Origin: a virus
Reading direction: 5' to 3' (one strand)
DNA length: 38,894 bases
Virus record (IMG/VR): IMGVR_UViG_3300005435_000014
Coordinates: 1 to 38,894 of that record
Part shown: positions 30,631 to 32,771 of the stretch, in pieces
Layout of the letters: each line of letters starts with the position of its first letter
Numbering within the stretch: the first letter of the stretch is position 1
Translations under genes and position numbers: made by a program
The notes under the pieces: generated by a model
The model's input: only the letters and a program-made list of their open reading frames with translations
Database searches by the model: none
Told to the model about the DNA's origin: nothing

Positions 30631-31212
30631 TTATGCGTCTATGGTCAATTGAAGCGACCCCCACTGATCGGCCATTGCCTTCGCGATCCCTGGGTACGTT
30701 GCAGACCGCTCGCGTGCGCGGTTCGGTCCAGGTGGCATCTTGTGAATCCGGTCTGCTCTGCCGTCAACGATCTCGGTCGGCGCCAGCTTCGGAACGCCAC
30801 GCAGCCATAGGCATGTCGCTTTTGTCTCGCCGTGCCCGAACTGCCAAGGCTGGATAATCTGGTCAGGCTTCCGATACAGCCGGCTGATGATCGACACCGG
30901 CTGCTCCAGCACGAACTTCGGAATATGCGCGCTTCGGCGGATCAACTGCATCACGAACGCAACGCCGGCCGCCTGCCTGCCGTCCATCCACTTCTCTTCG
31001 AAATGCTTCGCGCCACTGACCGACGTATGCGTGCAGGGCGGATGGAAAATCGCCAGATCCCACGGGTAATCGATCACGTCGAAAATGTCTCCCTTGTAAT
31101 GCGGACCCTTGCGGCGCGTATCCTGCAAATCGCACGACAGAACCTTATGCCCCTTCGCTTCGAACGCTTCTCGAACCTCGCCTGACTCTTCGCAGCCCAC
31201 CAGCACGTTCAT
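30631..31212 (-). CDS. DNA methyltransferase-like protein (phage SAM-dependent type)
   Basis: A 193-aa protein opening NVLVGCEESGEVREAFEAKGHKVLSCDL, a SAM-binding motif I pattern. FHPPCTHTSVSGAKHF (about residues 55-70) follows in the place of the catalytic D/N-P-P-x motif, and it ends ERSATYPGIAKAMADQWG. This is a phage family often labelled DNA cytosine methyltransferase. It may protect phage DNA from host restriction. ATG 31212 is chosen as the first start before motif I. Confidence 0.7.
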   Translation of the reverse strand: MNVLVGCEESGEVREAFEAKGHKVLSCDLQDTRRKGPHYKGDIFDVIDYPWDLAIFHPPCTHTSVSGAKHFEEKWMDGRQAAGVAFVMQLIRRSAHIPKFVLEQPVSIISRLYRKPDQIIQPWQFGHGETKATCLWLRGVPKLAPTEIVDGRADRIHKMPPGPNRARERSATYPGIAKAMADQWGSLQLTIDA

Positions 31213-31228
31213 TTCCCACCTCGTATTG

Positions 31229-31453
31229 TTATTCGCTCTTCTGCGTGTTCGGCTGCTGCGAGCTGTCTGGAATATCTTCGACATCGCATAGTTGATATGT
31301 ACCGAGGTCTTGAACCTCCAATTCTTCATCTACGAAAACACCATCGCCGCGTTTCACAGCCTCCAGCGCTTCTTCCTCTGAATCCGCATCGGCGTAGTAG
31401 GTTTGATTTCCTACGACCGAAGTCGCATCAACTACAAATGTGTATCGCTTCAC
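31229..31453 (-). CDS. Small acidic protein of 74 aa
   Basis: GTG 31453 follows AGGAACAGGAA and overlaps the stop of the 26-aa micro-ORF (GTGA). The sequence (KRYTFVVDATSVVGNQTYYADADSEEEALEAV...) is a beta-strand/helix fold with an SEEEALE helix, similar in layout to small phage proteins that pair with methyltransferases. No function is assigned. Longer upstream starts would run through the direct repeat. Confidence 0.5.
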   Translation of the reverse strand: MKRYTFVVDATSVVGNQTYYADADSEEEALEAVKRGDGVFVDEELEVQDLGTYQLCDVEDIPDSSQQPNTQKSE

Positions 31454-31530
31454 TTCCTGTTCCTCACAATTTGCACATCGCCAATAACCACCCGCACATC
31501 CAACCCTGATCGCTTGTTCACCAGTTCCAT
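31450..31530 (-). pseudogene. 26-aa fragment, truncated copy of the 60-aa gene at 32589
   Basis: ATG 31530 to TGA 31450. It encodes MELVNKRSGLDVRVVIGDVQ and a short end, identical over these 20 residues to the C-terminus of the protein at 32589-32771. It lies inside the 77-bp duplication. It may be a leftover 3' end of a duplicated gene, yet its stop overlaps the next GTG, so it could still be translated and couple that gene. Confidence 0.65.
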
Positions 31531-31538
31531 GACAGCGG
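31462..31538. repeat. 77-bp direct repeat, left copy
   Basis: Matches 32598-32674 with 2 mismatches in 77. The copies bracket a 95-aa gene and the C5-methyltransferase locus, so the segment looks like a duplication-flanked cassette. Confidence 0.9.
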
Positions 31539-31539
31539 G

Positions 31540-31827
31540 TTAGGTGCCGGTTGCTTTGGTGATGGCGGCTTGAATCTTTGTTTGGACTTCGCCGAGAAAC
31601 CCACGTGAGCATCCGTCGCCGATCTCCATTGCCAACTTCAGCGCCTCTAACATTTCGGGCGCAGCAGCGATCAGGCGTGCATGCTCTTCAGCTTCTTTCC
31701 AGGTGACTTCCTTCCCATGCATCGGGTGCTTGTCGCGCTGAAGTGCCACTGCTACAACGCCATGCGTGTCACTTTCAATCGCCCATCCGCCGCCGCGCTG
31801 TTCTGGCGAAACAAACCACTTGCTCAT
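31540..31827 (-). CDS. Conserved phage protein of 95 aa with ARLIAAAPEML motif
   Basis: Residues about 51-66 (ARLIAAAPEMLEALKL) form a helix very common in small phage proteins. The front half (SKWFVSPEQRGGGWAIES...) is strand-like. Function is unknown. A good AAGGAG precedes ATG 31827. The start overlaps the stop of the alternate frame of the methyltransferase locus (ATGA). Confidence 0.65.
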   Translation of the reverse strand: MSKWFVSPEQRGGGWAIESDTHGVVAVALQRDKHPMHGKEVTWKEAEEHARLIAAAPEMLEALKLAMEIGDGCSRGFLGEVQTKIQAAITKATGT

Positions 31828-32588
31828 TTCCCACTCCTTGTTATGACTGCATCGCCCACCCGCATCGTGACGGGCAACCCTGATTGGTCATTAGCTAAGA
31901 ATCTCGAATGCTGTTGCTGCCACTGCTGGAACTTGCCCGTTTCCAACGGCATGCCAAGATTTGCCCAGCCTTCCGGCCAGAGCATCATGATTTCCCCGTG
32001 CAGAGGTGACCGCTTTTCGGTGCTGTTCTCGCGAAACCACGTTCTGAAATTGTGGCTTCCGTTGCCATGAAGCCCAGGACCGGTCGCTTCTGAGGTCAGA
32101 ACGGTCGGCGCGAATCCAGATTCGCTCTCGCCAATGGCAGGCGCCAACGTGGGCAGCTCCCAACACATCCCATCGCGCATCAAACCCGAGCGCGGCCAGG
32201 TCCCCAAGAACGGTTCCGAGTCCCCGAGAAGTGAGAGTTGGCGAGTTCTCCACGAAGACGTGTTGCGGTCGTACTTCATCCACGATGCGGGCCATTTCGC
32301 GCCAAAGTCCAGATCGCTTGCCGCCGATACCGTCTCCTTTTCCTGCGGGAGAGATGTCTTGACAAGGGAAGCCTCCAGACACCACGTCAACACGGCCTCG
32401 CCATGCGGTTCCATTAAAGGTGCGCACGTCATCCCATATCGGGAAAGGACGGAGTAGGCCTTCGTTTTGTCGAGCCACGAGAATGCCTGCGGCGTATGGT
32501 TCGAATTCAACTGCACAGACGGTTCGCCATCCGAGCAAGTGGCCGCCGAGAATTCCGCCTCCAGCGCCTGCGAAAAGAGCCAGCTCAT
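31824..32588 (-). CDS. Second long ORF over the C5-methyltransferase gene
   Basis: A 254-aa ORF in the +1 frame relative to the C5 methyltransferase. It starts 4 nt after that start and runs past its end, with its TGA overlapping the next ATG (ATGA). Residues about 111-150 (TSSWRTRQLSLLGDSEPFLGTWPRSGLMRDGMCWELPTLAP) and 201-228 (MMLWPEGWANLGMPLETGKFQQWQQQHS) match, from memory, a widely annotated phage protein type. It may be a genuine overprinted gene, a frameshift product, or a shadow of the other frame that databases carry as a protein. Confidence 0.4.
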   Translation of the reverse strand: MSWLFSQALEAEFSAATCSDGEPSVQLNSNHTPQAFSWLDKTKAYSVLSRYGMTCAPLMEPHGEAVLTWCLEASLVKTSLPQEKETVSAASDLDFGAKWPASWMKYDRNTSSWRTRQLSLLGDSEPFLGTWPRSGLMRDGMCWELPTLAPAIGESESGFAPTVLTSEATGPGLHGNGSHNFRTWFRENSTEKRSPLHGEIMMLWPEGWANLGMPLETGKFQQWQQQHSRFLANDQSGLPVTMRVGDAVITRSGK

Positions 32589-32592
32589 TCAT
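31891..32592 (-). CDS. C5-cytosine DNA methyltransferase
   Basis: A 233-aa enzyme. It has motif I LFAGAGGGILGG (6-17), motif IV GGFPCQDIS with catalytic Cys77, motif VI VENS (Glu115), motif VIII HWRERIW (153-159), and motif X GNGQVPAVA (217-225). The target-recognition region between motifs VIII and X is only about 60 aa, so it is a minimal enzyme. It probably methylates phage DNA to resist host restriction. The start ATG 32592 overlaps the previous stop (ATGA). A second reading frame covers nearly the whole gene. Confidence 0.82.
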   Translation of the reverse strand: MNELALFAGAGGGILGGHLLGWRTVCAVEFEPYAAGILVARQNEGLLRPFPIWDDVRTFNGTAWRGRVDVVSGGFPCQDISPAGKGDGIGGKRSGLWREMARIVDEVRPQHVFVENSPTLTSRGLGTVLGDLAALGFDARWDVLGAAHVGACHWRERIWIRADRSDLRSDRSWASWQRKPQFQNVVSREQHRKAVTSARGNHDALAGRLGKSWHAVGNGQVPAVAATAFEILS

Positions 32593-32771
32593 TTACCCCT
32601 CACAATTTGCACATCACCAATCACCACCCGCACATCCAACCCTGATCGCTTGTTCACCAGTTCCATGACAGCGGTAAGCAGGCGATGCGTTTTCTCCGTT
32701 GTCGGGCTATTTGCCAAGCAGTATTCGCTAAGCGCAGATTCTGCTGCGCTGGTCAAAGAGTCGCGGATCAC
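32589..32771 (-). CDS. Hypothetical protein of 60 aa
   Basis: The sequence has a helical first half and a strand-rich C-terminus (MELVNKRSGLDVRVVIGDVQ...). The last 24 residues recur at 31450-31530 as part of the 77-bp duplication. It overlaps both neighbours by ATGA. No family is recognised. Confidence 0.55.
   Translation of the reverse strand: MIRDSLTSAAESALSEYCLANSPTTEKTHRLLTAVMELVNKRSGLDVRVVIGDVQIVRGK
32598..32674. repeat. 77-bp direct repeat, right copy
   Basis: Second copy of the element at 31462-31538; this one is inside the intact 60-aa gene, so it is likely the parent copy. Confidence 0.9.

Follow-up and report, generated by a model that had tools for sequence, protein, structure and literature searches.

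Two overlapping frames of a phage C5-methyltransferase gene look like two subunits of one enzyme

Here, we report that a C5-methyltransferase gene in the window, i.e., the entire IMG/VR virus contig IMGVR_UViG_3300005435_000014 (38,894 nt), carries a second conserved gene in its +1 frame. We refer to the methyltransferase frame as A and to the +1 frame as B. Both frames are conserved and constrained as proteins across homologs, A is without a small domain, and in some homologs motif X has moved to B. These findings support a model, which we regard as very likely, of a two-chain C5-methyltransferase in which the recognition subunit B is overprinted on the catalytic subunit A. We also consider it probable that phage C5-methyltransferases of a large, widespread class encode a swappable recognition subunit over their own catalytic subunit, and that the first ~160 residues of this subunit are a domain invented by overprinting, so that one DNA would be selected as two interacting proteins over almost its full length. 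The original prediction for this locus had left the choice between conserved overprinting, a programmed frameshift and a shadow ORF. Conserved overprinting is now strongly supported by a second frame that is open and constrained across homologs; the original prediction did not contain the reading of A and B as apparent subunits of a single enzyme.

Both ORFs are found on the minus strand where they had been predicted (Table 1). The sequence also confirms that B starts 4 nt downstream of A, counted from ATG to ATG, that the TGA stop of B and the ATG of the next gene form an ATGA overlap, and that motif X of A shares DNA with the KFQQWQQQH segment of B (31908 to 31934). The phage-protein patterns that the original prediction pointed out in B are real, in that B belongs to the family phrog_1008, as do 87 of 87 aligned B homologs. 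The claim that A carries every main motif holds for motifs I to VIII and X, but not for motif IX, which is missing together with an A-coded recognition domain. Profile matches in the window place genes for RecT and a YqaJ/RecE-type protein in the neighborhood of the A/B pair.

Table 1. Features of the A/B locus, in positions of the window
Feature	Position	Strand	Evidence
Frame A: C5-methyltransferase catalytic chain, motifs I-VIII and X, 233 aa	31891..32592	-	Pfam PF00145 3e-30; phrog_363 4e-59; AlphaFold model vs M.HhaI
Frame B: overlapping +1-frame gene, proposed target-recognition subunit, 254 aa	31824..32588	-	phrog_1008 2e-12; open and constrained in homologs
GAGGGG, resembles a ribosome-binding site and could serve both starts	32596..32601	-	Sequence; spacer in homologs
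Overlapping starts ATGAATGA: A from 32592, B from 32588	32585..32592	-	Sequence; pattern [A/G/T]TGAATG in 88/114 homologs
A motif I (ALFAGAGGG)	32554..32580	-	Sequence
A motif IV with catalytic Cys (GGFPCQD)	32356..32376	-	Sequence
A motif VI (FVENSP)	32239..32256	-	Most of B SSWRTRQLSL (32229-32258) in same DNA
B motif GTWPRSGLMRDG	32169..32204	-	Sequence
A motif VIII (RERIW)	32116..32130	-	Near this point, B replaces A as the constrained frame
B proposed target-recognition region (FAPTVLTSEATG...)	32010..32114	-	Homolog substitutions on B third codon positions, 100/100 pairs
A stretch between motifs VIII and X: hypervariable, hydrophilic, without recognition domain	31993..32109	-	Low confidence in model
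B motif-IX-like segment (SPLHGEIMMLWPEGWANL); family consensus LNPxWVEWLMGWPxGWT	31956..32009	-	Sequence and profile alignment
A motif X (AVGNGQVP)	31927..31950	-	Sequence
Next gene, phrog_1273 (unknown function), joined to B by ATGA stop/start overlap	31540..31827	-	

Comparison of homologous sequences indicates that B is a real conserved gene and not a shadow ORF, i.e., a frame that is open merely from the base composition and codon bias of A. In the window alone, the open +1 frame is mildly unusual (2.3 stops expected, P=0.046), and a shadow ORF could be argued from this value. However, in 114 non-redundant homologs (below 90% DNA identity), B contains 6 stops, vs 489 expected from shuffling the synonymous codons gene by gene, and the third frame of the same homologs shows no deficit (1341 stops observed vs 1224 expected). 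Homologs were recruited with an A query (80 viral and 21 bacterial loci) and with a B query (68 loci). In the non-redundant set of 84 homologs recruited through A only, B has 0 stops in codons 10 to 160 vs 250 expected and 2 stops after codon 160 vs 96 expected, and the third frame has 979 vs 885. GC bias fails to explain the open frame because the GC3 of the homologs is mostly 0.4 to 0.6, and often 0.38 to 0.50; among plasmids, one from Leptospira (GC3 0.46) and one from Acinetobacter (GC3 0.41) have an open B too. In ordinary bacterial C5-methyltransferases, by contrast, +1 stops occur at expectation with essentially no match to B, and in the control phage gene RecT, +1 stops amount to 726 vs 678 expected. 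The original prediction had named frequent stops in B across close homologs, or constraint in A only, as the marks of a shadow ORF; instead, such stops are almost absent and B is constrained. Based on the synonymous shuffles, the third frame, the ordinary C5-methylase controls and the B-frame substitution pattern described below, we reject a shadow ORF caused by GC content or codon bias as hardly credible.

Constraint was computed in both frames across homologous DNA, as the original prediction had proposed, and both A and B are constrained as proteins. At 35 to 70% identity of A, the identity of third bases at four-fold sites of A is 55% vs 29% after shuffling, and every block lies above the shuffle. 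Base conservation at third positions is much stronger in A than in the control phage gene: at 60 to 70% amino acid identity, four-fold third-base identity in A is 0.58, with 0.30 in shuffled sequences, and the corresponding values in RecT are 0.40 and 0.36. In the same range, residue identity in the B frame is 0.46 vs 0.29 shuffled, as compared to 0.29 vs 0.27 for RecT. Because protein-guided alignments placed the recognition region badly, positional bias was redone on ungapped DNA alignments. In close pairs, differences within motifs I to VIII fall mostly at third positions of A, while those between motifs VIII and X fall at first positions of A, which are the third positions of B. In the recognition region at 80 to 90% identity, there are 0.333, 0.069 and 0.052 changes per codon at the third, first and second positions of B, respectively, with the same bias in 100 of 100 pairs. 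Thus, along the gene the constrained frame is first A, then B and then A again: A dominates over most of motifs I to VIII, B takes over in the recognition region and the motif-IX-like segment and still dominates in the first ten codons of the last block, and over motif X the dominant frame is once more A. Among the mycobacteriophage homologs, one group of five phages has 40, 14 and 8 recognition-region differences at the first, second and third positions of A, which is the B pattern; a second group has too few recognition-region differences to tell. Here, B is open from about codon 25 and must, therefore, start later. When the synonymous divergence of A was compared with that of flanking genes in the same contig pairs, A was lower in 49 of 68, a comparison that is too noisy because phages are mosaic. 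Two natural knockouts count against the two-chain model, but as single cases they prove little: in a prophage-like locus of Microvirga sp. BT688 (L154, 3001-3744), a TAG that is silent in B follows directly after the catalytic PC of A and B is intact, and in another locus (L093), the stop lies in B and A is uninterrupted. Altogether, as in an overprinted gene pair, the second frame is open beyond the expectation from codon bias in diverged homologs and is under protein-level constraint.

A is a C5-methyltransferase by its match to Pfam DNA_methylase and by the presence of motifs I, IV (PC), VI, VIII and X. In a superposition of its AlphaFold model on M.HhaI, 177 residues align at 2.5 Å, spanning HhaI residues 11 to 319 with the C-terminus of the large domain included; the middle of the model is unstructured. 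The sequence profile (HMM) match of A reaches HhaI residues 15 to 181 only. Because A superposes on the large domain of M.HhaI and the profile ends at residue 181, A equals this large domain. On its own, A is thus a C5-methyltransferase "large domain" that lacks the DNA-recognition domain. A recognition domain and motif IX are absent from its own chain, and the region between motifs VIII and X is hypervariable in A and constrained in frame B.

No match of B worth reporting was found in Pfam, NCBIfam or the PDB, and it has no detectable known domain; the label of phrog_1008 in the library is "DNA methyltransferase". The AlphaFold model of B (mean pLDDT 57, pTM 0.22) is too poor for a structure search and gives no fold support for a recognition domain. 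The C-terminal half of B contains WPTPTAxD-like units and the LNPxWVEWLMGWPxGWT segment. The best profile alignment of this IX-like segment is to motif IX of ordinary C5-methyltransferases; the alignment is short, with a profile probability of 1.6%. Its score of 16.3 compares with 9.1 +/- 1.6 for column shuffles, 1 of 200 of which scored as high, a modest signal that is not strong alone. In 344 of 393 pairs in which the DNA for motifs I to VIII is 90 to 99% identical, the recognition regions are unalignable, as would be the case for swapped specificity domains. More importantly, in several loci (L288/L420/L421/L423, L457, L431 and L298), A ends after motif VIII and motif X closes the B ORF. 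In these forms, which comprise at least four lineages, B carries motif X (RLKAIGNGQxP) downstream of its recognition and IX-like parts. Because motif X belongs to the catalytic domain, a B chain carrying motif X must join A. This is the strongest argument for B as a subunit and not an unrelated protein. Three more distant bacterial C5-methylases (L526, L549 and L552) have a partial B-like frame, and in L526 the segment reads HPIFYERLMGYPDGWT, which is closer to the classic motif IX; these loci may show how the overlap arose.

We suggest that chain A, in frame 0, would provide the large catalytic domain with motifs I to VIII and X, AdoMet binding and the Pro-Cys catalytic loop, and would carry a variable linker in place of the small domain. 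Chain B, in frame +1 and from its own ATG 4 nt inside A, would supply the small-domain functions through its C-terminal half, i.e., a swappable target-recognition region and the motif-IX-like segment, and its N-terminal half would be the part overprinted on motifs I to VIII. Both chains would be translated from a single mRNA, probably with a shared ribosome-binding site, and would assemble into the active methylase. In this model, we infer that B is translated, binds A and recognizes DNA.

The organization of the start sites bears on how the two frames are used. In most homologs, the start junction is [A/G/T]TGAATGAGYTGG. In the 88 loci with this junction, A starts with ATG in 56, GTG in 23 and TTG in 9, while the ATG of B is constant; across homologs, this ATG, which lies 4 nt inside A, is almost invariant. 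Where a ribosome-binding-site-like sequence was found, it mostly lies 4 to 5 nt before the start of A and 8 to 9 nt before the ATG of B. In some loci, the first possible start of A lies downstream of the ATG of B. This pattern fits two independent initiations from one site, as judged from the sequences, and not a frameshift. Ribosomal frameshifting would join motifs I to VIII of A to the recognition region of B, and lead back to motif X, to generate one chain in which the ATG of B is unused. The switch of the constrained frame at motif VIII, and again before motif X, is what such a mechanism would leave, and a few loci with homopolymer runs fuse the N-terminal half of A to the C-terminal half of B (L110, L131). 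However, B has its own near-invariant ATG next to a variable A start, and is stop-free and constrained through its first half, upstream of any such shift. Moreover, A reaches motif X in most relatives, and where it ends early, it ends at different places without a shared sequence; in five loci of this split form, no shared slippery site was seen by eye near the end of A. A programmed frameshift is, therefore, not needed, and we regard it as very improbable. In L110/L112, L130, L277, L289, L131 and L552, poly-G or poly-C runs re-phase the halves, joining either the N-terminal half of A to the C-terminal half of B or that of B to that of A; these could be phase variation, sequencing errors or assembly errors.

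B might alternatively be a real overprinted protein with a separate job, e.g., in anti-restriction or regulation, and A a complete methylase with an unusually short recognition region. The lack of a detectable known domain in B is compatible with this idea, as are the ATGA overlap of B with the next gene in the window and the constraint on the N-terminal half of B, given that the previously known split methylases need a C-terminal part only. By contrast, A lacks motif IX and behaves as the passive frame in the recognition region, and B carries motif X in four or more lineages. The original prediction had also asked whether B ever occurs without A. When viral contigs were scanned for DNA encoding the WxEWLMGxP pattern of B, without use of A, a methylase was nearly always encoded in the A frame at that very position (80 loci analyzed among the matches listed), and in nearly every readable case among these matches the B motifs lay over or beside a methylase; the exceptions were contig edges, rearranged frames and the form with motif X on B. 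We consider a separate function of B unlikely and favor the two-subunit model.

The two genes of M.EcoHK31I, the closest characterized case as compared by description, overlap in different frames, and its small chain, with 176 aa, is shorter than B. As in M.EcoHK31I, motifs I to VIII and X are on the large chain here; however, the recognition region is constrained in B and not on the large chain, and, with its start 4 nt after that of A, B covers almost the whole of A. C5-methyltransferases that are naturally split are already known, i.e., M.AquI and M.EcoHK31I (PMC3404938). M.EcoHK31I (YGGCCR) has motifs I to VIII and X on the large chain, on which its recognition domain is also predicted, and motif IX on a small second chain (PMC3404938); both proteins are required, according to the title of Lee et al. 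1995 cited therein. M.AquI (CYCGRG) has motifs I to VIII on one chain and the distal variable region with motifs IX and X on the other (PMC3404938). This distribution is the same as in the L288, L298, L431 and L457 forms, whereas the window and most relatives keep motif X on A; B also differs from the M.AquI arrangement in overlapping the full catalytic part of A. Phage DNA methylase genes of the ShiLan type also conceal a protein in a different frame, in this case an out-of-frame HNH that entered as a mobile homing-endonuclease insertion (PMC11855218). At the A/B locus, double coding extends over the whole methylase gene, diverged homologs conserve the pair, and domain searches found no HNH domain in B; an HNH insertion of the ShiLan type is, therefore, excluded. 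In the open-access literature searched, no description was found of a phage-wide, gene-length overlap of this type.

The standard arrangement is present in 288 of about 410 loci with recognizable parts. Named phages with homologs include those of the hosts Pseudomonas, Salmonella, Vibrio, Klebsiella, Acinetobacter, Stenotrophomonas, Microcystis, Synechococcus, Sulfitobacter and Mycobacterium. In a sample of 398 species, all of one bacterial phylum, 10 have a match to B at 1e-10. Usually one frame is annotated per record: B is the annotated CDS in Pseudomonas phage PP083311 and A in most other records, and the B-like phrog_1008 and the A-like phrog_363 carry the same label, "DNA methyltransferase", in the library. 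Because annotation programs usually drop overlapping frames, the recognition half would be absent from annotation, and many phage "cytosine methyltransferases" are probably annotated with half the enzyme missing. If our model is true, phage and prophage entries for "DNA cytosine methyltransferase" without a recognition domain would have their other half in the overlapping frame, and the annotated gene cloned alone is predicted to be inactive. The locus would then be a rare natural double-coding gene, with hundreds of homologs, whose products should interact, and it suggests a route for swapping specificity inside a double-coding region.

The surroundings of the pair show two further features. 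A neighboring gene (30631 to 31329, minus strand) matches phrog_757, which is also labeled "DNA methyltransferase", and has no Pfam match. A 77-nt direct repeat (31462 to 31538 and 32598 to 32674; 97% identical, 1136 nt apart) brackets the A/B pair and the small gene at 31540 to 31827, a layout that recombination would leave if it had inserted or duplicated this cassette.
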